Shown: in pieces, positions 2,745 through 19,959 of the stretch | How the letters are laid out: each line of letters begins with the position of its first letter | Numbering within the stretch: the stretch's first letter is position 1 | DNA from: Ancylobacter sonchi | GTDB lineage: Bacteria > Pseudomonadota > Alphaproteobacteria > Rhizobiales > Xanthobacteraceae | Direction of reading: 5' to 3' | Assembly: GCF_018390695.1 (NCBI RefSeq) | Contig: NZ_JAHBGF010000028.1 | Coordinates: 744,001-808,000, forward strand | DNA length: 64,000 bases | Position numbers and translations under genes: made by a program | Notes under the pieces: generated by a model | The model's input: the letters and a program-made list of their open reading frames with translations, nothing else | Told to the model about the DNA's origin: nothing | The model's database searches: none

Positions 2745-5700
2745 CTATTCCGCCGGGTGCGGCACGGCGATGATGGCGTGCCCGTGCTGGCGCAGCGGCC
2801 GGTTGCCGGTGAGCCGCCGCAGCAGCACGTAGAACACCGGCGTCAGGAACAGGCCGAAGAAGGTGACGCCGATCATGCCGGCGAACACCGCCACGCCCAT
2901 GGCGTGCCGCATCTCGGCGCCGGCACCGGTGGAGAGCACCAGCGGCAGCACGCCCATGATGAAGGCGAAGGAGGTCATCAGGATCGGCCGCAGACGCAGC
3001 CGCGCCGATTCCACCGCCGCCTCCACCGGACTGCGGCCGGTGAACTCCAGCTCACGAGCGAACTCGACGATCAGGATCGCGTTCTTCGCCGACAGTCCCA
3101 CCAGCACCACGAGGCCGATCTGGGTGAAGATGTTGTTGTCGCCGCCGCCGAGCCAGACGCCGAACAGCGCTGCGAGCAGCCCCATCGGCACGATCATGAT
3201 GATCGCGATCGGCAGGGTCAGGCTTTCATACTGCGCCGCCAGCACCAGGAAGACGAGCAAGAGGGCGAGCGGGAACACCAGGAAGGACGAATTGCCGGCC
3301 AGGATCTCCTGATAGGTGAGGTCCGTCCATTCATAGTCGAAGCCGGGCGGCAGCACCTCGGCGGCGATCCGCTTGGCCGCGTCCTGTGCCTGGCCGGACG
3401 AATAGCCCGGCGCCGGCGAGGCGTTGAAGTCGGCGGTGAGGAAGCCGTTATAGCGCATGGCGCGTTCCGGCCCCGCCGTCATCTCCACCTTGAGCAGCGC
3501 GGAGAGCGGGATCATCTCGCCCGAATTCGAGCGCACCTTCAGCTTGCCGATGTCCTCGGGCTTGGCGCGGTAGGGCGCGTCCGCCTGCACACGCACCGAA
3601 TAGGTGCGGCCGAACTTATTGAAGTCGTTGACATAGAGCGAGCCGAGATAGACCTGCAGCGTCTCGAACACCGACTGGATGGGCACGCCGAGCTGGCGGG
3701 CCTTGGTGCGGTCGACATTGGCGAAGAGCTGCGGCACGTTCACCTGGAAGGTAGTGAACTGGCCGACCAGTTCCGGCGCCTGCATCGCCTTGGCCATGAA
3801 GGCGTTGGTGACGCGGGCGAGCTCCTCGAAGCCGCGGCCGGCGCGGTCCTCGATCTGCATCTTGAAGCCACCCACCACGCCGAGGCCCTGCACCGGCGGC
3901 GGCGGGAACATGGCGATGAACGCATCTTGGATCGCGGCGTATTTCCGGTTCAGCGACATGGCGATGGCGCCGGCGCTGAGCGAGGGGTCCTTACGCTCCT
4001 CGAAGGGCTTCAGCACCGAGAACACGATGCCGGCGCTCGACGAGTTGGAGAAGCCGGCGATCGACAGGCCGGGGAAGGCCACCGCATTCGCCACGCCCGG
4101 CTCGGCCAGGGTGATCTCGGTCATGCGGCGGATGACCTCCTCGGTGCGGTCGAGCGTGGCGCCGTCGGGCAGCTGGGCGAAGCCGACCAGATACTGCTTG
4201 TCCTGCGCCGGCACGAAGCCGCCCGGCACCGCCTGGAACAGCCACCAAGTGGCGCCCAGCATGACGGCGTAGAACAGCATCACCACGCTCTTCACGGTGA
4301 GCACGCCGCGCACGCCGCGGCCATAGCCGGACGAGCCGCGGGTGAACACATAGTTGAAGCCGCGGAAGAACCAGCCGAACAGCGCGTTGATGACCCGCTG
4401 CAGGCGGTCCGGCTCGGCATGGTGCCCCTTGAGCAGCATGGCGGCCAGAGCCGGCGACAGGGTGAGCGAGTTGATCGCCGAGATCACCGTCGAGATGGCG
4501 ATGGTGAGCGCGAACTGCCGGTAGAACTGGCCGCTGAGGCCGGTGATGAAGGCGAGCGGCACGAACACCGCCACCAGCACCAGCGCGATGGCGATGATCG
4601 GACCGGACACCTCGCTCATCGCCCGGTAGGCGGCGTCACGCGGGGACAGCCCGTCCTCGATGTTGCGCTCGACATTCTCCACCACCACGATGGCGTCGTC
4701 GACGACGATGCCGATGGCCAGCACCAGTCCGAACATGCTCAGCGCGTTGATCGAGAAGCCGAAGACATACATCACCGCGAAGGTGCCGACGATCGACACC
4801 GGCACGGCGAGCAGAGGAATGATCGAGGCGCGCCAAGTCTGCAGGAACACCACGACGACGATGACCACCAGCAGCACCGCCTCGAACAGCGTGTGCACCA
4901 CGGCCTCGATGGAGGCGTCGACGAAGCGGGTAGTGTCGTAGACGATCTCGTAGCCGACGCCATCCGGCATGGTCAGCTTGACCTCGTCCATCGTCTTGCG
5001 GACGTTCTCGGCGATTTCCAGCGCGTTGGAACCCGGCGCCTGGAACACGCCGATGCCGACCGCCTGCTTGTTGTCGAGCAAGGCCCGCAGCGCATAGTCG
5101 GAGGCGCCGAGCTCCATGCGGGCAACGTCGCGCAGGCGCACGACCTGTCCGTCGGCACCGGTCTTCACGACGATATCGCCGAACTCCTCCTCGGTCTCCA
5201 GGCGGCCCTGGGCGTTGACGGTGAGCTGGAGCTCCACCCCCTGCGACGCCGGCGAGGCGCCGACCGTACCGGCAGCCGCCTGCACGTTCTGGGCGCGGAT
5301 CTCGTTCACGACGTCGCCGGCCGACAGGCCGTGCTCGGCGATCTTCTGCGGATCAAGCCAGACCCGCATCGAGTAGTCGCCGGCGCCGAAGATATCGACC
5401 TGACCGACGCCGGAGATGCGCGCCAGCCGGTCCTTTACGTTCAGCACGGCGTAGTTGCGCAGATAGGTGGTGTCGTAGCGGTCATTGGGCGAGACGAGAT
5501 GCACCACCATGATGAAGTTGGGTGAGCTCTTCGCCGTGGTCACGCCGAGGCTGCGCACCTCTTCCGGCAGGCGCGGCTCGGCCTGGCTGACGCGGTTCTG
5601 CACCAGCTGCGTCGCCTTGTCCGGGTCGGTGCCGAGCTTGAAGGTGACGGTGAGCGTCAACGCGCCGTCGGTCGTGGCCTGCGAGGACATGTAGAGCATG

Positions 5701-5927
5701 TCCTCGACGCCGTTGATCTGCTCCTCGATGGGCGTTGCCACCGTGGCGGCGATGACCTTCGGGCTGGCGCCGGGATATTGAGCGCGCACGATGACCTGCG
5801 GCGGCACGACCTCGGGATATTCCGAGATCGGCATCACCCGCAGCGCCAGAAGGCCAGCCACGAAGATCAAAACGGAGATGACGCCGGCGAAGATCGGCCG
5901 GTCGATGAAGAATTTGGACAGATTCAT
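2745..5927 (-). CDS. RND efflux pump, inner-membrane transporter (HAE1/AcrB-MexF family)
   Basis: A 1060-residue hydrophobe/amphiphile efflux-1 transporter, the normal family length. It opens with the family signature FFIDRPIFA and has twelve predicted membrane helices with two large periplasmic loops. The proton-relay pair is visible in GIVVDDAIVVVEN of TM4. It would form a trimer, take substrates from the periplasm or outer leaflet, and export them by proton antiport through the adaptor encoded just upstream and an outer-membrane channel. No outer-membrane factor gene is present in the cluster, so an unlinked TolC-like protein is presumably used. It is the third gene of an operon with the hydrolase-like protein and the adaptor, read away from a LysR regulator. 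Drugs exported are not predictable. Confidence 0.95.
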   Translation of the reverse strand: MNLSKFFIDRPIFAGVISVLIFVAGLLALRVMPISEYPEVVPPQVIVRAQYPGASPKVIAATVATPIEEQINGVEDMLYMSSQATTDGALTLTVTFKLGTDPDKATQLVQNRVSQAEPRLPEEVRSLGVTTAKSSPNFIMVVHLVSPNDRYDTTYLRNYAVLNVKDRLARISGVGQVDIFGAGDYSMRVWLDPQKIAEHGLSAGDVVNEIRAQNVQAAAGTVGASPASQGVELQLTVNAQGRLETEEEFGDIVVKTGADGQVVRLRDVARMELGASDYALRALLDNKQAVGIGVFQAPGSNALEIAENVRKTMDEVKLTMPDGVGYEIVYDTTRFVDASIEAVVHTLFEAVLLVVIVVVVFLQTWRASIIPLLAVPVSIVGTFAVMYVFGFSINALSMFGLVLAIGIVVDDAIVVVENVERNIEDGLSPRDAAYRAMSEVSGPIIAIALVLVAVFVPLAFITGLSGQFYRQFALTIAISTVISAINSLTLSPALAAMLLKGHHAEPDRLQRVINALFGWFFRGFNYVFTRGSSGYGRGVRGVLTVKSVVMLFYAVMLGATWWLFQAVPGGFVPAQDKQYLVGFAQLPDGATLDRTEEVIRRMTEITLAEPGVANAVAFPGLSIAGFSNSSSAGIVFSVLKPFEERKDPSLSAGAIAMSLNRKYAAIQDAFIAMFPPPPVQGLGVVGGFKMQIEDRAGRGFEELARVTNAFMAKAMQAPELVGQFTTFQVNVPQLFANVDRTKARQLGVPIQSVFETLQVYLGSLYVNDFNKFGRTYSVRVQADAPYRAKPEDIGKLKVRSNSGEMIPLSALLKVEMTAGPERAMRYNGFLTADFNASPAPGYSSGQAQDAAKRIAAEVLPPGFDYEWTDLTYQEILAGNSSFLVFPLALLLVFLVLAAQYESLTLPIAIIMIVPMGLLAALFGVWLGGGDNNIFTQIGLVVLVGLSAKNAILIVEFARELEFTGRSPVEAAVESARLRLRPILMTSFAFIMGVLPLVLSTGAGAEMRHAMGVAVFAGMIGVTFFGLFLTPVFYVLLRRLTGNRPLRQHGHAIIAVPHPAE

Positions 5928-5982
5928 AACGTCCTCCCCCCAAAGGAGGCGAAAAACGGATCGGGTGCGAACGCGGTCGGCG

Positions 5983-7287
5983 TTACTGCGCAGCGACCGT
6001 GGCAGGGTCCGTCGCCTTGGCGGCGGAGGCGGTTTCCATGGGCACGACTTCCGGCGCCAGCAGCGCGCCGGGGCGCACCCGCTGCAGGCCCTTGACGACG
6101 ACGCGCTCGCCGTCCTTCAGGCCGCTCGCGACCACGCGCAGCCCCCCGGTGGGCGGGCCGAGCTTCACTTCGCGATAGGCGGCCTTGCTGTCGGCATCGA
6201 CGACGAAGACGAACTTCTTGTCCTGGTCAGTGCCGACGGCGCGCTCATTGATCACCAGCGCCGGCTCGGTCTTGGCCCGGCCCATCCGCACGCGGGCGAA
6301 CTGGCCCGGCACCAGCCGGCCCTGCGGGTTGTCGAACACCGCGCGCAGGCGGAAGGTGCCGGTGGCGGCGTCTACCTGGTTGTCGACCAGCTGAAGATGG
6401 CCGCGCATCGGCTCGCCGCCGGTGGTCGCGGTAACGATCTCCACCGGGATGCGGTCGATGCTGCCGAGCACGTCGCCATCGCCGATGGTGGCCAGCGCTT
6501 GGCTCACCACGCCCTCGTCGGCGTCGAAGCTGACATAGATGGGGTCCACCGACACCAGCGTCGTCAGCACCGGCGAGGTCGGGCCGGCGGCGACGAGATT
6601 GCCGACGGTGACGTTGAGCCGGCCGACGCGGCCGTCCACCGGCGCGCGCACCTCGGTATAGTCGAGATCGAGCTTGGCGGTCTGCACCGCCGCCTCGGCC
6701 GCCTTCAGATTGGCCTCGGCCTCGCGGAAGCTGTTGGTGCGCTGGTCGAGGTCGCGCACCGACACCACCTTGTTGTCGACGAGCTGCTTGCCGCGGTCGA
6801 GTTCGCTGCGGGTGAACTCGACCTGAGCCGCCGAGGCCTGGCGCAGCGCCTCGGCGCGGTCGAGCGCCGCCTGGAACGGATCGGGATCGATGGTGACGAG
6901 CAGGTCGCCCTGCTTGACCAGCGCGCCCTCGCGGAAATGCACCGTCTTCACGGCACCGGCGACGCGGGGCCGTACCTCGACGCGCTCGACCGCCTGCAGG
7001 CGGCCGGAGAACTCGTCCCACTGCATGGTGTCGCGCGCCTTGAGCACGGCGACCGACACCGGCGTCGCCGGCGGCTGCTGCGCCTGCCCGGCCGGCGGAT
7101 CGGTGGCCAGCGCCTCGGTGATCGGCCAGGCGAGCCAGACGGCGGCGGCGGTCGCCATGCCGGCAAGGCTGAAGGCGAGCCCAGCCTCGCGCCAGCGGCG
7201 GCGACGCGGGGTCTCCCCGGCACGTGCCAGTTCGGCGCGGACGATTTCCGGTACGGCGGAATGATTACGAGCGTGTTCGGTGCTCAT
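5983..7287 (-). CDS. RND efflux periplasmic adaptor (membrane fusion protein)
   Basis: This 434-residue MexE/AcrA-type adaptor has a cytoplasmic N-terminus, one membrane anchor at about residues 37-55, a barrel-sandwich (lipoyl-like) half around VEVRPRVAGAV, an alpha-helical hairpin, and the returning half at YTEVRAPVDGRVGR. The beta-barrel and membrane-proximal domains follow. It bridges the inner-membrane pump and the outer-membrane channel. It ends 55 bp before the pump gene and starts 18 bp after the hydrolase-like gene, so all three are co-transcribed. The N-terminal stretch before the anchor is longer than in AcrA, and no lipobox cysteine is seen, so anchoring should be by the helix. 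Confidence 0.94.
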   Translation of the reverse strand: MSTEHARNHSAVPEIVRAELARAGETPRRRRWREAGLAFSLAGMATAAAVWLAWPITEALATDPPAGQAQQPPATPVSVAVLKARDTMQWDEFSGRLQAVERVEVRPRVAGAVKTVHFREGALVKQGDLLVTIDPDPFQAALDRAEALRQASAAQVEFTRSELDRGKQLVDNKVVSVRDLDQRTNSFREAEANLKAAEAAVQTAKLDLDYTEVRAPVDGRVGRLNVTVGNLVAAGPTSPVLTTLVSVDPIYVSFDADEGVVSQALATIGDGDVLGSIDRIPVEIVTATTGGEPMRGHLQLVDNQVDAATGTFRLRAVFDNPQGRLVPGQFARVRMGRAKTEPALVINERAVGTDQDKKFVFVVDADSKAAYREVKLGPPTGGLRVVASGLKDGERVVVKGLQRVRPGALLAPEVVPMETASAAKATDPATVAAQ

Positions 7288-7305
7288 GCGGCGATCTCCC
7301 GGCCC

Positions 7306-8127
7306 TCAGGCCTGAACGGATTCGGCGGCGGCGATCGAGTGCCCCGCCAGAAAGGAAGCGAACAAGGGCCGCAGTTCCTGCGCCCAACGGGGCAGGCTGT
7401 CGGCATCGGCAGTGTCTTGCGGCCAGTCCGAGGTTTCGGCGACGACATGGCTCTCGACCGGCACGCCGCAGCCCTGCAGGCGGCGGACATAATCGAGGCT
7501 CTCGTCGCGCATCGGGCAGTCGTCCGAGGTGATGATCAACGCCGGCGCCACGCCGCCGAGACGGCGCGAACCGAGCGGCGCGGCATAGGGGTGTGCCCCC
7601 TTGTCGGCCGAGCCGAGATAGGAATGCCAGCCATCCGCCCATTTGCAGCCGGCGGCGCCGGCCTCGGCGGCATGGATGGAGCCGGAGGCCAGGCTCGGAT
7701 CCAGCATCGGCGAGATCAGGATCTGGCCGGCAACCGGCGGCTGGAGCTGGTCGCGCGCCATCAGGGTGAGGGCGGTGGCGATGTTGGCGCCCGCCTCCTC
7801 GCCGGCAACGAACAGCTTGGCGCCCCGTCCCGCCCAGCGGGACCGCTGACGATGCAGCAAGCCGAGCGCGGCGAAGCTGACATTCAGCGCCGCGGGAAAC
7901 GGATGCTGCGGCGCCAGCGGATAGTCGGCCGACACCACGACGGCGCCCGCTTCCGCCATCGCCCGGCAGATCAGCGCGCTGCAATCGAGATCGCCGCAGG
8001 TAAAGGTGCCGCCATGCAGGTGCAGGACAAGCGGCGCCGGCCGCGCCAGCACACCGGAACGGTAGACGCGGATCGGCAACACCGTCCCGTCGAGATCCAA
8101 CCTGTCCTCGGTCCACAAAGCCGACAT
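7306..8127 (-). CDS. Alpha/beta-hydrolase-fold protein (HSL family) lacking the catalytic triad
   Basis: A 273-residue protein that aligns throughout with the hormone-sensitive-lipase family: LHLHGGTF oxyanion region at 35-42, SADYPLAPQHPFPAAL at 66-81, and the C-terminal strands. The nucleophile motif GDSAG is GEEAG here (Glu111 for Ser). The acid motif, usually DPLRDE, is CPMRDE (Cys204 for Asp). The usual IHGF histidine motif is absent near residue 234. It is therefore unlikely to be an esterase. It is the first gene of the RND operon, next to the LysR gene, which suggests a role in sensing or binding a pump substrate; that is inference. The ATG at 8127 has an AGGG ribosome site; a GTG at 8157 is possible. 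Confidence 0.82.
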   Translation of the reverse strand: MSALWTEDRLDLDGTVLPIRVYRSGVLARPAPLVLHLHGGTFTCGDLDCSALICRAMAEAGAVVVSADYPLAPQHPFPAALNVSFAALGLLHRQRSRWAGRGAKLFVAGEEAGANIATALTLMARDQLQPPVAGQILISPMLDPSLASGSIHAAEAGAAGCKWADGWHSYLGSADKGAHPYAAPLGSRRLGGVAPALIITSDDCPMRDESLDYVRRLQGCGVPVESHVVAETSDWPQDTADADSLPRWAQELRPLFASFLAGHSIAAAESVQA

Positions 8128-12729: not shown

Positions 12730-13746
12730 TCAGCGCGCCGCCTCGAAGATCGCCTGCGTATCGGTCAGCCACACCGGATCGAGCGACTTCGCCACGTCGA
12801 GCACCCGCCGCATGGCGGCGGCGCCCGACGGCGTGCCGACCACGAAGGGATGGATGCCGATCGCCACCACCGTCGCCTCGCGCGACGGATCGGCTGACGC
12901 CTCGCGGGCGAGCTCGCCGATATAGTCGGTCCACAGCCGCTCGAGGTCGCCCGGCTCCATGCCGCGCAGCAGATAATGCCCCATGTCGACGGTGACCGCC
13001 GGATAGGGAATCTGCAGCAGTGGGCCGGTCGGCGTCTTCAGCTGGGTGAGATTGTCGGAATCCATCGCGTCGAGCGTGTAGCGTATGCCCTCGGCGGCGG
13101 AGGCGGCGAAGGTCTCGCCATCGGGATAGACGCTCGGGCTGGACCAGCCGACGGGACGCTCGCCGGTATCGTGCTCGATCATGTCCAGCGTGCGGCGGAT
13201 ATAGGCCCGCTGCGCCGCCGGCCCTTCGGCAAGCGGCAGCATCTGCGTCGAGTTGTTGAGGCCGTGACCGAGGATCGGCGCGTTGGGCTGAACGGCGCGC
13301 AGCGCCTTCCACACTTCGGGATGCGCGGCGGGGAAAAGCGCGTTCAACGCGAAGCTGAGCGGCACCCCCTCATCCTTGAACAGCCGGCCGACCCGGGTGA
13401 GGCCGAAATCAATGGCATATTGCCGGAACGCCTCATTCACCACGTCGGGGCGGCGCTCGGTCATGTCCGGGCGCAGCACCGGGCCATGCCCGACGCCCCA
13501 GTCCTCGACATAGAGCACGAAGGCCACCGCGACCTTCTTGCCATTGGGCCACGCCGTCACCGGCACCGCCTCGCGCGGCAGGCCAGTGATAACGTCCTGC
13601 ACCGCCCGCGCCGGACCGGAAGCACCCGGCAGCACAGTGGCCGCCAGCAGGCCGAGCAGCAGTGCCCGGCCTGTGGCCGCACGCCATCCTCCCCGCCCGC
13701 CGCGACACGGCCTGATCGGATCGGCGGTGAGATGAAGCCTGTCCAT
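12730..13746 (-). CDS. Exported NodB-fold protein, PuuE/allantoinase-like
   Basis: A 338-residue protein with a basic N-terminus, a hydrophobic stretch (ALLLGLLAATVL) and an ARA-type cleavage site, so export is expected. The mature part is a polysaccharide-deacetylase (NodB) fold in the PuuE/allantoinase branch: VAFVLYVEDWG at strand 1, ILGHGLNNS, and GWSSPSVYPDGETF. The HxxxH zinc motif of true polysaccharide deacetylases is not seen, as in PuuE, which opens a cyclic amide ring. It is the last gene of the molybdenum-hydroxylase operon, 123 bp after the unknown exported protein. Together this suggests hydrolysis of a cyclic or linear amide outside the cytoplasm rather than deacetylation of sugar. 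The substrate is unknown. Confidence 0.8.
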   Translation of the reverse strand: MDRLHLTADPIRPCRGGRGGWRAATGRALLLGLLAATVLPGASGPARAVQDVITGLPREAVPVTAWPNGKKVAVAFVLYVEDWGVGHGPVLRPDMTERRPDVVNEAFRQYAIDFGLTRVGRLFKDEGVPLSFALNALFPAAHPEVWKALRAVQPNAPILGHGLNNSTQMLPLAEGPAAQRAYIRRTLDMIEHDTGERPVGWSSPSVYPDGETFAASAAEGIRYTLDAMDSDNLTQLKTPTGPLLQIPYPAVTVDMGHYLLRGMEPGDLERLWTDYIGELAREASADPSREATVVAIGIHPFVVGTPSGAAAMRRVLDVAKSLDPVWLTDTQAIFEAAR

Positions 13747-13869
13747 GGTCGCCCCCGCTTTTCTTCGCCCTGCCATCGATCCCGAGCGGCCACGGCGGCC
13801 AGGCCGCCGCAGTGACGTGCCCTCTCCCACCCTCGTCCAGCCGTCGCGATGCGACGACATGTGGAGCGA

Positions 13870-14982
13870 CTACGGCAGGTCGGCCAGCGACGCCGGGCCG
13901 GGACCGGGGGTTATCAGCGTCGGCCATTGATGCGAGCCGAACGGCACCTTGGGCGGCAGGTTGGTCGGCAGCCCCATCGCCTTGGTCTGCGCAACGATGG
14001 AATCGCGGGCATCGCCCCCCATCAGCTCGTAGTCCATCAAATAGCGGCTGCCGAAGAAGGTCTCGCCCACCGTGCGGTCGGCGATGATGCGGGTGAGCGA
14101 ATCCAGCATATCGTTCGGCGTGGTGGTGAAGGACACCGTCTCGATCAGGATCAGCCGGGAATTGATGTCCTCCGGCGTGAAGAACTGCGCCAGCACGCTG
14201 TAGAGCACGTTGTTCTGCCGGGCGACATAGATGGTGTTGGACGCGGCATAGACCTTGTCCCAGTCGGGGCCAAGGTCCTTCTTCCAGCCGGCCAGCACGC
14301 CCATCCAGTGCTTCACCTGCGTGTCGGCCGCCCACTGGATATTGAGCTTCAGCCGGTTCTTCTGCTTCGCCGCGAAGGCCTGCACATCGGCGAAGCTCAC
14401 CGTCTCGCCGGCTGCCACCTTGTCGATGAAGGCGATGTTCTCGGAGATCAGCTCGCGGTTGTTGGCGCGCCACTCCTCCGGCATCGAGGTCTTGTCGAGG
14501 CTATCCAGCGCTGCCTTGAGCCGCACGCGATAGGCCTGCACCTGGGGTTGCCAGGAGCCGTCGTCCTTCTTGGCGATATGCGGCCCGACGACGACGCCCA
14601 GCGCCATCACGCTGTGGCCGACCGATTTCAGCAACTGGTACACTTCCGGCACCGGCGGGCCTTCCAGCGGCGGCTGGCCGGGACGGTAGAGGATGAAGCG
14701 GCCGCCGGCACCGGAGAACAGTCCGAGGATCACCGGGTGCTGGGCGAGAATGCTCGCCTGCACCAGCTTGGAGGCGTCGGAATACAGGTCGAACATGCCG
14801 GTATTGAGCGCCAGCACATTGTTCTTGGCGACCGTGGCGGCGTCCGGCACCTTGGCGCCGACGATAACGTCCATATAGGCCGGGATGTCGGACTGCGCCT
14901 GTGCATGGGCCGGCGCCCCGGCAAGGCCAGTCAGCGCGGCACCCGCCAGCAACGCCCGGCGAAGAGTGACGATACGGTTCAC
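13870..14982 (-). CDS. Exported protein of unknown function in the molybdenum-hydroxylase operon
   Basis: A 370-residue protein with a clear Sec signal (LLAGAALTGLAGAPAHAQA). I do not recognise a family. The mature part is mainly helical by composition, has no CxxC or CxxCH motif, and contains repeated aromatic and asparagine-rich segments (NNVLYSVLAQFF, GSRYLMDYELMGG). The start is a GTG at 14982 with a GGGGAG ribosome site; no ATG fits. It lies between the diheme cytochrome gene (64 bp upstream) and the PuuE-like gene, on the same strand, so it is probably a periplasmic partner of that system. Confidence 0.8.
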   Translation of the reverse strand: MNRIVTLRRALLAGAALTGLAGAPAHAQAQSDIPAYMDVIVGAKVPDAATVAKNNVLALNTGMFDLYSDASKLVQASILAQHPVILGLFSGAGGRFILYRPGQPPLEGPPVPEVYQLLKSVGHSVMALGVVVGPHIAKKDDGSWQPQVQAYRVRLKAALDSLDKTSMPEEWRANNRELISENIAFIDKVAAGETVSFADVQAFAAKQKNRLKLNIQWAADTQVKHWMGVLAGWKKDLGPDWDKVYAASNTIYVARQNNVLYSVLAQFFTPEDINSRLILIETVSFTTTPNDMLDSLTRIIADRTVGETFFGSRYLMDYELMGGDARDSIVAQTKAMGLPTNLPPKVPFGSHQWPTLITPGPGPASLADLP

Positions 14983-15046
14983 GGCGTTCTCCCCTCGCGG
15001 CCTCCGCCGGCCGCTGTTTTGTTGATGGACTGCGGCCCCCGGTCGG

Positions 15047-15667
15047 TCAGGGACAATAGGCCCCCGATTCCACCCAGGCCTCGACCAGCGCACCGGCCTG
15101 TTCCTGCGTGCCCGGCAGGGGCGTGCGGCCCGGCCCCGGATGCCACGCCCAGCCGACCAGCGTGTCCTTGCCGATATGCTCGATCAGGTCGGTCAGCTTG
15201 CGGTTGCCGTTGCGCTTCGGGTCCTTGATCTGCTCGCAGATCTGCGAAACCGTCTTGCCTTCCCAGGCCATTTCCGCCGGCGCCAGATGCCAGGCCTCAT
15301 GGCCCGGCATGCGGGCGGGATCGAAATTGGCTTTGCCGTGGCAGGAATTGCAGCGCATCGTCTCCAGCCCGAAGCCGTCGACGCCGCGGAACACCGGCGG
15401 CTGGTGCGGGCGCGCCTCGTCGCCCTGCCGCGGCCGGTCGGTGACCGGGTGGCAATTGGTGCAGCGCGGATTGGTGACCACCTTGCCGAGCTCGGTGAAA
15501 TAGGCCGCCGAGCGGGCCTTGGGATCGACGATGCTGGCGAAATCGGCCGGGGCTGCCAGCGTCCCCGCGCCGGTGGCCGACTGGCCGGGATCGCTGAAAC
15601 CCGTCGCCACCGCGCTCGCCAGCACGGCGACCGCCATCAGGGCGGGAAGGCGCCATTCGCGGATCAT
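15047..15667 (-). CDS. Exported diheme cytochrome c, electron acceptor of the molybdenum hydroxylase
   Basis: A 206-residue protein with an N-terminal signal or anchor ([17 protein letters not shown]) and two heme-attachment motifs, CTNCH and CNSCH, about 35 residues apart. It lacks the usual spacing of tandem class I cytochromes. It lies 11 bp downstream of the 2Fe-2S subunit gene. Cytochromes in this position next to IorAB-type enzymes are taken to carry electrons from the hydroxylase to the respiratory chain. Axial ligands cannot be assigned with confidence; methionines follow each motif. Confidence 0.88.
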
Positions 15668-15678
15668 GTGCCCCCCGC

Positions 15679-16191
15679 TCAGGTGAGATAGCGGCCGGCA
15701 TCGGCCAGGACGACCGCGCGCACCGCTTCGTGGTACTTCACATAACCGGAGCAGCGGCACAGATGCCCGTCCAACGCTTCGGTGATGGTGCGCTCCAGAT
15801 CCGCGCGCGGGATCGGGTCGCGCGCCAGCCGCTCCAGGAGCACCTGTCCCTCATTGAGGAAGCCGGGGGTACAGTAGCCGCACTGGAAGGCGAAATGCTC
15901 GATGAAGCTCACCTGCAGCGGAGTGAGCCCGCCGCCGGTGGCGTGGCCTTCCACCGTGCGGATGCTCAGGCCGTCGAAGTCCACCGCCGGGGCGATACAG
16001 GTCGGGCGGGTGGCGCTGATACCACCATCGTCGACGATGACCGCGCAGCTGAGGCATTGCGCGGCGCCGCAGCCGAACTTGGTGCCGGTCATGCCGAGCA
16101 CCTCGCGCAGGAAGTCGTTCATCGAGAGGTCGTCGCGCACCTCGATGGGGCCGATGGCCCGGCCGTTGATGGTGAGGCTGAGCGCGGTCAC
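15679..16191 (-). CDS. iorA: 2Fe-2S subunit of an IorA-type molybdenum hydroxylase
   Basis: A 170-residue subunit with two [2Fe-2S] clusters. The plant-type ferredoxin domain shows GCGAAQCLSC and a fourth cysteine at PTC. The C-terminal helical domain carries CGYCTPG and CRCSGY. It passes electrons from the molybdenum cofactor of the large subunit. It has no signal peptide, so it would be exported folded with its Tat-targeted partner. The GTG start at 16191 overlaps the TGA of the large-subunit gene by 4 bp (GTGA), a tight coupling that supports a 1:1 complex. Confidence 0.93.
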   Translation of the reverse strand: MTALSLTINGRAIGPIEVRDDLSMNDFLREVLGMTGTKFGCGAAQCLSCAVIVDDGGISATRPTCIAPAVDFDGLSIRTVEGHATGGGLTPLQVSFIEHFAFQCGYCTPGFLNEGQVLLERLARDPIPRADLERTITEALDGHLCRCSGYVKYHEAVRAVVLADAGRYLT

Positions 16192-18953
16192 GCGAGGACT
16201 CCCTTGATCATCTGCGGCGTGACCGGCAGCGACTGGAAACGATGCCCGGTGGCGTCACAGATGGCGTTGAGCAGCGCCGGCACCACCGGGATCATCACCA
16301 CTTCGGCCATGCCCTTGGGCGGCTCGCGCGGCGACAGCGGCGGCAGGATCTCCACCTCGAGGTCGTGCAGCGGCAGGTCGGAAGCGCGGGCGACGACGTA
16401 GCGGCCGAGATTCCACTGGCCGTTGCCGGGACCGTCCTCATAGAGCGGCAGGTTTTCCAGCAGCGCATAGCCAACGCCCATGGCGAAGCCGCCCTGCGAC
16501 TGGCCGCGCACGATCTCCGGCACCAGCGCCTCGCCGCATTCGACCACGCTATAGGCCTTGGCGATGGTGAGCCTGCCGGTGGCTCGCTCGATCTCCACCC
16601 GCAGCGTCGTGCCGCACATGGAGGAGAACGAGGTGCCGATGCGGTTGTAATCGGCGGGCGGGAACGCCACCGCCTTGCGGTCGAGCCGCGTGAACTCACC
16701 GGAGCCATGCCGGAGTGCCAGAGCATCGATGTCGGCGGTCCACGACTCGCCGGCGACATCGAAAGTGGCCTGCGCCCATGCCCAGCGAGAGAAGGCGTGC
16801 GTCATCGCGCCGGTCACGCCGCCCATGGCGTGTGCCTTGGCGGCGATCGCCTTGAGCGGCAGCGGGTTGAGGCCGGAAATAACCAGCGTCTCGCCCTGCC
16901 AATAGGCCTCGCCATGCTGCTTCGCGCGCGGATCGCCCGGCGCGATGCCCCAGATCGCCAGCGCCGCCGGCCACAGGCCGAAGCGGAACAGGATCCGCGC
17001 CGCCTCGGCAGCCGCATGCGTGCCGACATGGGCGCCGATGGAAGCGCTGGTCGCCGAGGAAATCTCCGGCACCCAGCGCGGATCGGCTGCCGCCTTGTCC
17101 TGTGCTTCCTGGGTGATCGAATAGGGATCGCCGGACTTGAACAGCTCGAGTTCGTCGAACACGTCGACCTGCGCCACCGTCACCTCGTCGGCAATGCCGC
17201 CGATATGGCCGGCGACGCGGTTGGCGAGCGCGGTGCCGATGCCGTTGCCCATTTCCACCGCGTCGGAATGGATGGAGATCCGTCCCTCGGCGTCGATGCT
17301 CACCGAGCCCAGCGAGCAGTCGGCGCCAGTGCCATAATCCTTCGCGGCAACGGCAACGCCGGTACCCACCAGCACGCCGGGTTTCGCCTTGGTCTTCTCG
17401 GCCGCACGGTCGCGCCAGATGGCGTGGGCGTCGAGCTTGTCGAGGATATCCGGCGCGCGCACCGACACCGAATAAGGGTTGCCGGTCATGGTGCGGCCGC
17501 CGACCTTCAGCGCGTTGCGCCGGCGAAATTCGATCGGGTCGAGCGGCAGGGAGGTGGCCGCCTCGTCGACCAGTACTTCCAGCGCCGTCATGGTCTGCAG
17601 CGTGCCGTAGCCGCGCATCGAGCCGGCAGTGACGCCGCGCGAATGCAGGGCGACCGTCGTCACGTCGACCTTGGGGACATCGTACATGCCGATGGCGGCG
17701 GTGGCGCCGACCACCGCGACACTGGGCGAGTAGTTGGCGAGGCCGCCACCGTCGAGTTCGTGATCGGCGGCGAAGGCGGTTATCAGCCCGGTGGCGCGGT
17801 CAACGCCGATCCGCGAGCGCATCTTGAAAGCGTGGCGCTTGATGCCGCCCTGGAACTGCTGGAAGCGGTCATGGGCGAGCCGCACCGGCTTGCCGGGGAA
17901 ATACAGCGCGGCCAGCGTCATATAGAGCGGGAACGGCGTGTGGTCGCGACCGCCGAAGCCGCCGCCGACATAGCAGAACTGCGCATCGATCTTCGCCGGG
18001 CGAAAATCGGGCTGCGCCTCGCCGACCAGATACGCGAGGGCCTCCGCCGCCTCGAAGGGCGACTGGACGCCGAGCACGATCTCCAGCTTCTTGCTACCCG
18101 GCTCGTACCAGGCGAGGCCGGCTTCCGGCTCCAGGAACATCGGGTCGATGGACTGGGTCTCGAATTGCCGATCGATCACCAGCGTTCCGGCAGCCGGCTT
18201 GGCGAGCTCGTCGCGGATCTGCGTGCCGAAATTGGCACCCTTCACATATTCGCCGCCGGAGGCGACCGGCAGTGGCTCCCAGATCGGTCGGCCGGAGCCT
18301 TCGAAGAAGCCGGGACGGATCCACCCCTCCTGAATGGGCGAATAGAGGTCCGGCCCGTTCGGGTCCGGGCCGGCGACGCGGGTGAAGCGGAAGGCGGCGT
18401 AGTTCGGCCCGACGATCGGGCCGGTCTCGGCACCGAATTTCAGATGCGGATTGTCGCGCAGGAATACCCGGGCGCGGTCATAGGCATCGAAGCTGTCGAA
18501 CAGCAGCAGCGCCACCGGCTGGCCGAGATAGAGCGGTGTCTTGCCGACCGGGCAGAACAGGTCGCCCGTATAGAAGGCCGGCACCCGCAGGCCGATCTTG
18601 GCGACGTCCTCGGCGGTGACGATGACCGCTGGACGGGCTGACGCGTCCAGCCCGTCCAGCGCGAGCCCTTCATAGAGATGGCTGGCGTCGGGCGTGCGCA
18701 GCAGCAGTGCGTGATGCGTCTCGGCGGGCCAGCCCGGCAGATCGGCGGCGCGGAAATCCGAGGCGTAAAGCTTGGCGCCCGTTACTTTGGCGACGCCGTC
18801 GACGCGCCCTGCCGCGGGGTGGACGACACCCCTGCCCGGCAATGTCTCGCGGTCGAGAAAATTGGGGGTTTGTGCGCTGGCCATGCGCGAAAGGCTGAGC
18901 GAGATGCCCCCGGCCGCGCTCCACTGCAAAAATTCGCGCCGCGAGGGACGCAT
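16188..18953 (-). CDS. iorB: Molybdopterin-binding large subunit, IorB-type, Tat-exported
   Basis: A 921-residue aldehyde/xanthine-dehydrogenase-family large subunit. The N-terminus SRREFLQ followed by a hydrophobic stretch and MASA is a Tat signal, so the folded holoenzyme acts in the periplasm. Family landmarks include YVGGGFGGRDH, RGYGTLQTM and, near the C-terminus, EPPKGMAEVV, whose glutamate corresponds to the catalytic base. Members of this branch oxidise isoquinoline, nicotinate-like rings or aldehydes and use cytochrome c rather than NAD. Here it starts an operon with the 2Fe-2S subunit, a diheme cytochrome c and two exported proteins. The ATG at 18953 has a GGAG site. The name iorB is by family, not proof of isoquinoline as substrate. 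Confidence 0.92.
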   Translation of the reverse strand: MRPSRREFLQWSAAGGISLSLSRMASAQTPNFLDRETLPGRGVVHPAAGRVDGVAKVTGAKLYASDFRAADLPGWPAETHHALLLRTPDASHLYEGLALDGLDASARPAVIVTAEDVAKIGLRVPAFYTGDLFCPVGKTPLYLGQPVALLLFDSFDAYDRARVFLRDNPHLKFGAETGPIVGPNYAAFRFTRVAGPDPNGPDLYSPIQEGWIRPGFFEGSGRPIWEPLPVASGGEYVKGANFGTQIRDELAKPAAGTLVIDRQFETQSIDPMFLEPEAGLAWYEPGSKKLEIVLGVQSPFEAAEALAYLVGEAQPDFRPAKIDAQFCYVGGGFGGRDHTPFPLYMTLAALYFPGKPVRLAHDRFQQFQGGIKRHAFKMRSRIGVDRATGLITAFAADHELDGGGLANYSPSVAVVGATAAIGMYDVPKVDVTTVALHSRGVTAGSMRGYGTLQTMTALEVLVDEAATSLPLDPIEFRRRNALKVGGRTMTGNPYSVSVRAPDILDKLDAHAIWRDRAAEKTKAKPGVLVGTGVAVAAKDYGTGADCSLGSVSIDAEGRISIHSDAVEMGNGIGTALANRVAGHIGGIADEVTVAQVDVFDELELFKSGDPYSITQEAQDKAAADPRWVPEISSATSASIGAHVGTHAAAEAARILFRFGLWPAALAIWGIAPGDPRAKQHGEAYWQGETLVISGLNPLPLKAIAAKAHAMGGVTGAMTHAFSRWAWAQATFDVAGESWTADIDALALRHGSGEFTRLDRKAVAFPPADYNRIGTSFSSMCGTTLRVEIERATGRLTIAKAYSVVECGEALVPEIVRGQSQGGFAMGVGYALLENLPLYEDGPGNGQWNLGRYVVARASDLPLHDLEVEILPPLSPREPPKGMAEVVMIPVVPALLNAICDATGHRFQSLPVTPQMIKGVLA

Positions 18954-19305
18954 GCTCTGCTCCTACCCGATCGAAATGCACGATATCGTCGCGACAACGG
19001 CATCCCGCGAAACAATTCCACGAAAAACCTTGCGCCACAGGGCGGATATATTTCTTTTAGGGAGACACTACTTACTAATATAGTCGCATGACGCAGGTGC
19101 CACCATGTCAAGCCGATATAAGCAAGCTATTGCCTGCTCAAAACGACGGTACACAGGCGCAGGCTGGCTGGCAAGTTCAGTTTAGATATGTTTCAATTTT
19201 ATCGTTTTTTTGGGCTGGAACAATAGGCATGGCATCTCGATCTAGAGGTTCTGCGCTTGATCCTGCATCTCCACTGGCGAGGCGGCCGGCCGGCAAACCG
19301 GCATC
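18954..19305. other. Intergenic region between iorB and the AraC pseudogene
   Basis: No credible gene. The stretch from about 18960 to 19250 is clearly richer in A and T than the flanks, and must hold the promoter of the iorB operon on the minus strand. I see no convincing inverted repeat or terminator. Part of the lost 5' end of the AraC gene may lie at its right edge. Confidence 0.6.
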
Positions 19306-19959
19306 CTGACGGAGCGAACCACCGCAGGCATCCCGGTGAAGGAGCGGCTGGATTACTGGTGCCGTGCCGTGCTGCATCGCGTCGAACTGCTCATCCTCGC
19401 CAATGGCGCGCGGCTCTCCAGCCGGATGGTGCATATTTCCAGGGTCGAATGCGACTTCCTGGATCACACCTCAGATGCCATCCACACGCGCCGCGACACC
19501 CAGCGCCTGAAACGCGACGATTACGACGAGATCATCACCAGCCTCGTCGGCCGGGCCGGCTCGATGCATCTCAACCATATGGCCAGCGTAGCCTGCGCGG
19601 CGACGACCTGTGCATCGCCGATTTCAGCCGGCCGATCGAGCAGGTACGCTCGCGCCATCAGGACATCACGCTGATCTTCAAGCGCGAGCGGCTCGCCGAA
19701 CTGCTTGAGGGCGACGTCTCATTGCTCGCGCGCCACCTCGTACCGGGCGTTCTCCGGTCACGAGACGAGCATCGCCGAAACCATCTGGGCAGAGCGGCTG
19801 GAGCATGCCCACCAACTGCTGGCCGCGCCGGAGCACACCGGCCGTTACATCAGCGACGTCGCCATGCAAAGCGGCTTCGTGGACATGCCGACCTTCAACC
19901 GGATTCTCGGGAAGCGGTTCGGCCGCACGCCCGGCGAAGCGCACTTCGGTTCGGGGTGA
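19306..19959 (+). pseudogene. AraC-family regulator, frameshifted and internally deleted
   Basis: The reading frame starts like an AraC_binding_2 protein (TTAGIPVKERLDYWCRAVLHRVE), runs to about 19585, then similarity moves to another frame (QRSLRGDDLCIADFSRPIEQVR) until about 19735. It then returns to the first frame as the second half of the DNA-binding domain (YRAFSGHETSIAETIWAERLEHA, DVAMQSGFVDMPTFNR). The linker and the first helix-turn-helix are missing, so there is a deletion of roughly 80-100 codons as well as two shifts. No functional product is expected. Its position upstream of the molybdenum-hydroxylase operon suggests it was once that operon's regulator. Confidence 0.8.

Follow-up and report, generated by a model that had tools for sequence, protein, structure and literature searches.

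An undescribed protein family accompanies molybdenum hydroxylases across Alphaproteobacteria and switches between enzyme types

Clusters that pair a molybdenum hydroxylase with a c-type cytochrome have been described in Pseudomonas. According to the passages of PMC6365646 that deal with them, the deoxyribose dehydrogenase of P. simiae (PS417_10880-10890) oxidised deoxyribose in cell lysate, the lactonase of the same pathway is predicted to be cytoplasmic, and growth of P. putida on vanillin requires PP_3621-3623, a cluster proposed from mutant fitness to encode a vanillin dehydrogenase. The same P. putida cluster has been proposed as one route of glyceraldehyde oxidation (PMC7188995, in the part on this route). 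PuuE allantoinase is stated to be a non-metal-dependent enzyme in the relevant section of PMC10967932, and the metal-binding HpPgdA is contrasted with PuuE in that of PMC3084791. Here we describe an operon of Ancylobacter sonchi, found in a 64,000-nucleotide stretch of DNA (assembly GCF_018390695.1, contig NZ_JAHBGF010000028.1, positions 744,001 to 808,000; hereafter the window), that joins a hydroxylase-cytochrome trio to two further genes, one for a protein that we call UNK and one for a PuuE-like protein. The three-gene layout is of an already known kind; UNK is an undescribed, widely conserved protein family inside this known kind of unit.

The operon comprises five open reading frames (ORFs), all on the minus strand between 18953 and 12730, in the order large subunit (LSU), iron-sulfur (Fe-S) subunit, cytochrome, UNK and PuuE-like protein:

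16188..18953, minus strand: LSU, 921 amino acids (aa); xanthine-oxidase-family molybdopterin protein with a twin-arginine translocation (Tat)-type signal, from the ORF and Pfam MoCoBD_1/2
15679..16191, minus strand: Fe-S subunit with two [2Fe-2S] domains, 170 aa, GTG start; Pfam Fer2 and Fer2_2
15047..15667, minus strand: diheme c-type cytochrome, 206 aa, with a hydrophobic N-terminus and two CxxCH motifs
13870..14982, minus strand: UNK, 370 aa, GTG start, lacking Cys, with a signal-peptide-like N-terminus
12730..13746, minus strand: PuuE-fold protein (NodB superfamily), with a signal-like N-terminus by eye and a match to PDB 3cl6

The ORFs confirmed the layout given in an earlier note on this DNA, i.e., five same-strand genes at this place, with a 4-bp overlap between the LSU and Fe-S genes and an 11-bp gap between the Fe-S and cytochrome genes; a further 64 bp separate the cytochrome gene from UNK. 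The PuuE-like ORF is open from an ATG at 13860, 9 bp from UNK, and has an alternative ATG at 13746 (123-bp gap) that is the likelier start. The operon is more than a chance arrangement, as the hydroxylase trio and UNK recur jointly across many genomes.

Judged by their domains, which comprise a molybdopterin-binding and two [2Fe-2S] domains, the LSU and Fe-S subunit are a predicted xanthine-oxidase-family molybdenum hydroxylase. The LSU begins with a twin-arginine motif and matched MoCoBD_1 (1.7e-43) and MoCoBD_2 (5.5e-25), and the Glu of a Gly-x-Ala-Glu motif near its C-terminus aligns with xanthine dehydrogenase (XDH) relatives; we take this aligned Glu to be the catalytic residue. The Fe-S subunit carries Fer2 and Fer2_2 domains and 8 Cys. 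These features are conserved among relatives: an RR motif is present in 62 of 63 LSU relatives, GGGFGG in all 63 and KGxAEV in 61, Fe-S relatives contain 8 Cys (59/63) or 9 Cys (4/63), and each of 61 cytochrome relatives has exactly two CxxCH motifs. The cytochrome itself matched no Pfam or NCBIfam model at E ≤ 0.001. The operon contains no FAD gene and, with its Tat-type LSU signal, separate Fe-S gene and cytochrome c gene, has the IorAB-like layout with cytochrome. The best XDH model, NF043082, scored 196.2 bits where its cut-off is 780, and the LSU does not qualify as a xanthine dehydrogenase. The label "IorB-type" in the earlier note holds for architecture; by sequence, no IorB model was among the domain-model matches of the LSU, and its best PDB sequence relatives are 4-hydroxybenzoyl-CoA reductase and quinoline 2-oxidoreductase.

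A pattern search of named genomes, made with a UNK alignment, gave 164 relatives; the loci analysed (L numbers) are the best 80 of these. An LSU of at least 50% identity stands at 65 of these 80 loci, in several gene orders, the commonest being UNK-LSU-FeS-cytochrome. The unit put forward in the earlier note, a molybdenum hydroxylase with an export signal and a cytochrome c link, is on this count a real conserved module. A sample of 198 genomes of the same family (G numbers), in which LSU counts derive from at most four scored candidates per genome, contained UNK in 31 genomes and an LSU of at least 60% identity in 33; the two coincide in 26 genomes, i.e., 26/33 LSU genomes and 26/31 UNK genomes (one-sided p 2.6e-21, kinship uncorrected). 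Outside the 26, genome G136 has an adjacent pair of UNK and LSU at 42-43% identity, in G001, G048 and G101 an FAD-linked enzyme adjoins UNK, and in G030 (82% complete) neither kind of partner was found. UNK was present in 4 of 398 genomes sampled across the phylum, all four from the window's own family; among the best 80 of 164, the carriers named below class are Hyphomicrobiales-type genera and Acetobacteraceae or Roseomonadaceae.

UNK is strongly conserved, with a mean column identity of 69% over 33 rows. For the window protein, Pfam gave no family at E ≤ 1 and NCBIfam none at E ≤ 0.001; over 33 members, the best Pfam E-value was 0.022 (Terpene_synth_C, 3/33). A UNK profile found nothing below E 0.14 among PDB sequences, and its fold found nothing in the PDB at E ≤ 0.001 with Foldseek. 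The fold comparison (VIA list) gave a single outlier, 4jx2, which is lpg1979 of Legionella pneumophila, titled a putative secreted protein and nothing more; with 12% identity, a root-mean-square deviation of 5.4 and no sequence match, this likeness is near chance level for helical proteins.

Signal peptides, judged by a rule of our own, were marked in 71/81 UNK proteins, 7/10 PuuE-like proteins, 40/61 cytochromes and 20/63 LSUs. The controls were 0/97 for the pooled Fe-S, FAD-linked XDH, FAD and ABM proteins and 12/56 for window genes. A stricter rule marked 55/81 UNK proteins and 1/10 PuuE-like proteins. The PuuE-like protein of the window was left unmarked because the called start at 13602 removes its N-terminus.

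UNK is not confined to the cytochrome-linked hydroxylase. At 9 of the 80 loci, other than those with LSU, it is followed by a cytosolic-looking, FAD-linked XDH-like enzyme with fused Fe-S and molybdenum domains, the order at L081, L111 and L137 being UNK, FAD subunit, fused XDH-like enzyme and ABM-domain protein. Neither partner is nearby at the six loci L074, L075, L103, L116, L119 and L134, the genomes of L074, L075 and L103 having an LSU elsewhere. In a UNK tree of 100 rows made by a quick method, the partner type changes at least four times, 11 unpartnered rows not being counted, and the window's UNK falls in a starred set of 16 rows that contains both partner types. Conversely, an LSU of at least 67% identity occurs without UNK in 7/198 genomes; in one of these (G062) the LSU is 83% identical and lies at the same chromosomal site (L161), where UNK and the PuuE-like gene are absent and the neighbours, read by eye, are those of the window (LysR, DHDPS, arginase and a response regulator). 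The FAD-linked enzyme of the UNK type (at least 75% identity to that of L111) was found in 9/198 genomes, three of which have UNK. Because the LSU and the FAD-linked enzyme both occur without it, UNK is a portable add-on in both partner contexts and not a required subunit. The five-gene unit of the earlier note is accordingly genuine in that the trio and UNK recur, yet it is looser than five genes, because UNK can instead precede a cytosolic-looking FAD-linked enzyme and the PuuE-like gene is optional.

These data also bear on the possibility that xanthine-oxidase-family enzymes have UNK as a structural subunit or as a periplasmic chaperone or assembly factor. Its position beside two subfamilies of such enzymes and its strong conservation would suit this role. 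We nevertheless consider it decidedly unlikely, as the FAD-linked partner of UNK has a signal peptide in 0/12 cases (own rule), which would place it in a different compartment from signal-bearing UNK, and as close LSU relatives and the FAD-linked operon both occur without UNK.

Two further observations were made at these loci. At the syntenic site L161 (5255-11095), UNK and the PuuE-like gene are replaced by a kinase-like gene, identified by eye. In L091, L108, L110, L115, L121 and others, the region immediately upstream of UNK (~5000-7800) carries, on the opposite strand, 30-42% matches to the LSU and Fe-S subunits; these weak matches suggest that several Bradyrhizobium loci may have a second hydroxylase, of another subfamily.

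The last protein of the operon belongs on the PuuE side of the NodB fold by both sequence and structure, as the earlier note had it. It matched the sequence of PuuE in PDB 3cl6 at 2.7e-19, and its model (predicted local distance difference test, pLDDT, 78.7) gave 3cl6 as best Foldseek match (E 1.2e-15, template modelling score 0.66/0.74), i.e., a PuuE-type NodB fold. Its 67.3 bits against TIGR03212, with a cut-off of 424.6, do not make it a PuuE allantoinase. Metal-ligand positions were read from alignments against 3rxz and against a paralogue from the same genome (L185) that keeps the Asp-x-Asp and His-x3-His pattern. All 11 PuuE-like sequences have Tyr or Phe at the base Asp position, Glu81 at the metal Asp position and Asn165 in place of the second metal His; all of them share His161 and His299. 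We take the CE4 triad to be the Asp-His-His metal ligands plus the base Asp. Because the protein lacks this classical metal triad, carbohydrate deacetylation is unlikely on the basis of its residues, which argues against the polysaccharide deacetylase that the earlier note had weighed against its own proposal.

The PuuE-like gene is present at 10/80 UNK loci. Across the 198 genomes it occurs in 12 (E ≤ 1e-40), all of which contain UNK (hypergeometric 2.6e-11, kinship uncorrected) and 11 of which contain an LSU of at least 60% identity, the exception being G030. In 5/12 genomes it lies apart from UNK, at ~2 Mb (G080), at ~1 Mb (G138) or on another contig of a fragmented assembly (G004, G132 and G147). 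Because the gene accompanies UNK even when unlinked, dependence on UNK is more likely than mere linkage. The claim that both last genes are conserved with the hydroxylase thus stands in full for UNK and by half for the PuuE-like gene, which is rare at UNK loci yet keeps to genomes with UNK and LSU. Near the unlinked PuuE-like gene of G147 there are remnants of an LSU gene (L172, 6110-6748), which suggests a former full cluster in this genome.

The explanation that we favor, and to which we give about an even chance, is an extracytoplasmic cytochrome-linked hydroxylase with UNK acting on its partner's compound and the PuuE-like protein adding an optional hydrolase step. The LSU/Fe-S pair would oxidise a small organic compound outside the cytoplasm, and its Fe-S clusters would hand electrons to the diheme cytochrome c, through which they would reach the respiratory chain. 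UNK, as a distinct exported protein, would most likely bind or convert the compound of the partner hydroxylase; because it would act on this compound, it could be swapped between exported cytochrome-linked and cytosolic-looking FAD-linked enzymes. The PuuE-like protein would catalyze a downstream step, most likely the hydrolysis, without a metal, of a small amide, imide or ureide that is formed only when UNK is present.

Several points weigh against this explanation. The signal rule misses 3/10 PuuE-like proteins and 21/61 cytochromes, and the loss of metal ligands in the PuuE-like protein is a reading from alignments. The PuuE-like gene is missing from 70/80 UNK loci and is thus unneeded for the main job of the module, and G030 (82% complete) carries UNK and the PuuE-like gene with no LSU found. 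UNK, whose fold has no clear relative, could also be a binding protein or chaperone. A bolder version of the favored explanation, which we think unlikely, is that UNK founds a new exported enzyme family that acts on the substrate or product of the hydroxylase and makes the substrate of the PuuE-like protein, giving a complete extracytoplasmic ring-oxidising and ring-opening pathway.

The substrate may be an aldehyde or an N-heterocycle. If the trio were an aldehyde-oxidising respiratory enzyme, it would act on periplasmic aldehydes, with UNK and the PuuE-like protein serving the same compound in some other way; this is possible though doubtful. The characterised P. simiae cluster that oxidised deoxyribose shares the layout of large and Fe-S subunits, Tat-type signal and cytochrome c, and P. 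putida depends on its cluster to grow on vanillin (both in the pertinent passages of PMC6365646); this second cluster also has its proposed role with glyceraldehyde (in that of PMC7188995). Moreover, an LSU relative of ~40% identity adjoins a 431-aa protein with a Cys-x-x-Cys-His motif at L175. The likeness to PP_3622, however, is one of layout, the P. simiae lactonase is predicted on the cytoplasmic side (PMC6365646, same passages), and it is hard to see what a relative of cyclic amide hydrolases would do in aldehyde oxidation.

The earlier note had instead proposed that an N-heterocycle is hydroxylated to a lactam that is then opened. As a pathway, the exported hydroxylase would make a lactam or imide and the exported PuuE-like hydrolase would open its ring, all outside the cytoplasm. 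We did not find this borne out and hold it quite unlikely: the PuuE-like gene is absent at 70/80 UNK loci, and the layout relatives that are characterised oxidise aldehydes, as the passages of PMC6365646 on them report. A PuuE fold without the classical metal triad and the confinement of the PuuE-like gene to UNK genomes among the 198 are nonetheless in keeping with it, as are two findings from genomic context. First, the same genome contains a cytosolic-looking FAD-FeS-Mo hydroxylase operon (L186, 6720-11243, contig C4 of G000) whose last gene encodes a PuuE relative. This gene lies 31 bp behind that of the large subunit, its product scores 396.5 bits, just below the cut-off of 424.6, and ABC transporter genes and one for an M20-like hydrolase follow (by eye); a hydroxylase and a PuuE relative are here paired independently of the window operon. 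Second, CDA-type deaminase genes stand beside three module loci. The deaminase of L107 best matches guanine deaminase, that of L134 (11758-12189) tRNA adenosine deaminase and then guanine deaminase, and that of L092 is a contig-end piece read by eye. The L134 gene directly follows the PuuE-like gene and has a signal-like N-terminus by eye.

Overall, the genomic context is a weak hint at purine-like compounds. A purine operon of the same genome (L187) has, in this order, urate oxidase, an FAD subunit, a fused XDH-like enzyme and guanine deaminase, and it also holds a decarboxylase/hydroxyisourate hydrolase fusion; a true PuuE (547 bits) is encoded separately. Since UNK precedes the FAD-linked enzyme (UNK, FAD, XDH-like, ABM) where L187 has urate oxidase, UNK might replace urate oxidase in a purine route. 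We rejected this candidate as very improbable: urate oxidase is commoner in UNK genomes (13/31) than in others (20/167), the reverse of replacement, and the UNK-linked FAD enzyme differs from the purine-operon enzyme in the surroundings of its active-site motifs. Furthermore, at the cut-offs applied, urate oxidase and PuuE allantoinase are both missing from the three same-family genomes with the UNK-FAD-XDH-like order, i.e., G001, G048 (79% complete) and G101, other urate oxidase kinds not having been searched.

Among neighboring genes, a convergent arginase gene adjoins the PuuE-like end of the operon, and a broken regulator gene lies divergent from the LSU:

19300..19953, plus strand: AraC-family regulator, broken, with pieces in different frames

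Against its homologue at L074 of Kaistia soli, where an intact one-frame gene adjoins UNK, tblastn found three pieces in two frames at 46-50% identity, the last of which (19705-19959) matches HTH_18 at 4.2e-12.

A multicopper oxidase was considered as a conserved partner and rejected as part of the unit, though kept as a lead. It is near 7/135 loci, some counted twice. Among 59 LSU rows, it occurs in 0/47 with UNK nearby and in 5/12 without (L162-L166; p 1.6e-4, kinship uncorrected), three of the five rows forming one clade. The other seven rows without UNK nearby include two with UNK elsewhere in the genome, one at a contig end and two from a distant 40% group. At L064 (1-939), a multicopper oxidase gene directly precedes UNK and the PuuE-like gene. 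A gene for the CTQ-dependent glycine oxidase GoxA (1101.7 bits, cut-off 750) and a flavoprotein gene lie near the hydroxylase genes of L163 (3979-7075), and the GoxA match recurs, 94% identical, at the same place in L164.

UNK thus accompanies molybdenum hydroxylases across Alphaproteobacteria, switching enzyme types. Its function, once found, would explain genes in Bradyrhizobium, Tardiphaga, Methylobacterium and Methylocystis, and work on it could reveal an extracytoplasmic oxidation pathway.

With regard to known systems, the literature searched yielded no description of the five-gene unit. Within this literature, the view that the unit is undescribed as a whole holds for the combination with UNK and the PuuE-like protein, but not for the hydroxylase-cytochrome layout, which had already been described. 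Like the PuuE-like protein, PuuE allantoinase (3cl6; TIGR03212) has a NodB-type fold and no classical metal triad; the PuuE-like protein differs in its signal-like N-terminus, in the residues after the conserved His and in its score (67.3 versus 424.6 bits). The HpPgdA-type deacetylase (3qbu) is of the same fold branch and one of the ten best Foldseek matches. Unlike HpPgdA, which according to the relevant section of PMC3084791 is able to bind a metal ion, the PuuE-like protein has lost the metal positions. Isoquinoline 1-oxidoreductase IorAB, likened by architecture, also has a large and an Fe-S subunit without an FAD subunit (PMC6365646); unlike the operon, it is described in the passage of PMC6365646 on iorB as having no cytochrome gene nearby. 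The Pseudomonas IorAB-cytochrome clusters are the nearest characterised units by layout. As the passages of PMC6365646 on these clusters set out, they share with the operon separate large and Fe-S subunits, a Tat-type signal and a cytochrome c gene in a putative operon, and the same passages mention neither UNK nor an exported PuuE-like protein. In contrast to these clusters, the operon described here places the LSU first, has a 206-aa diheme cytochrome and adds UNK and the PuuE-like protein.

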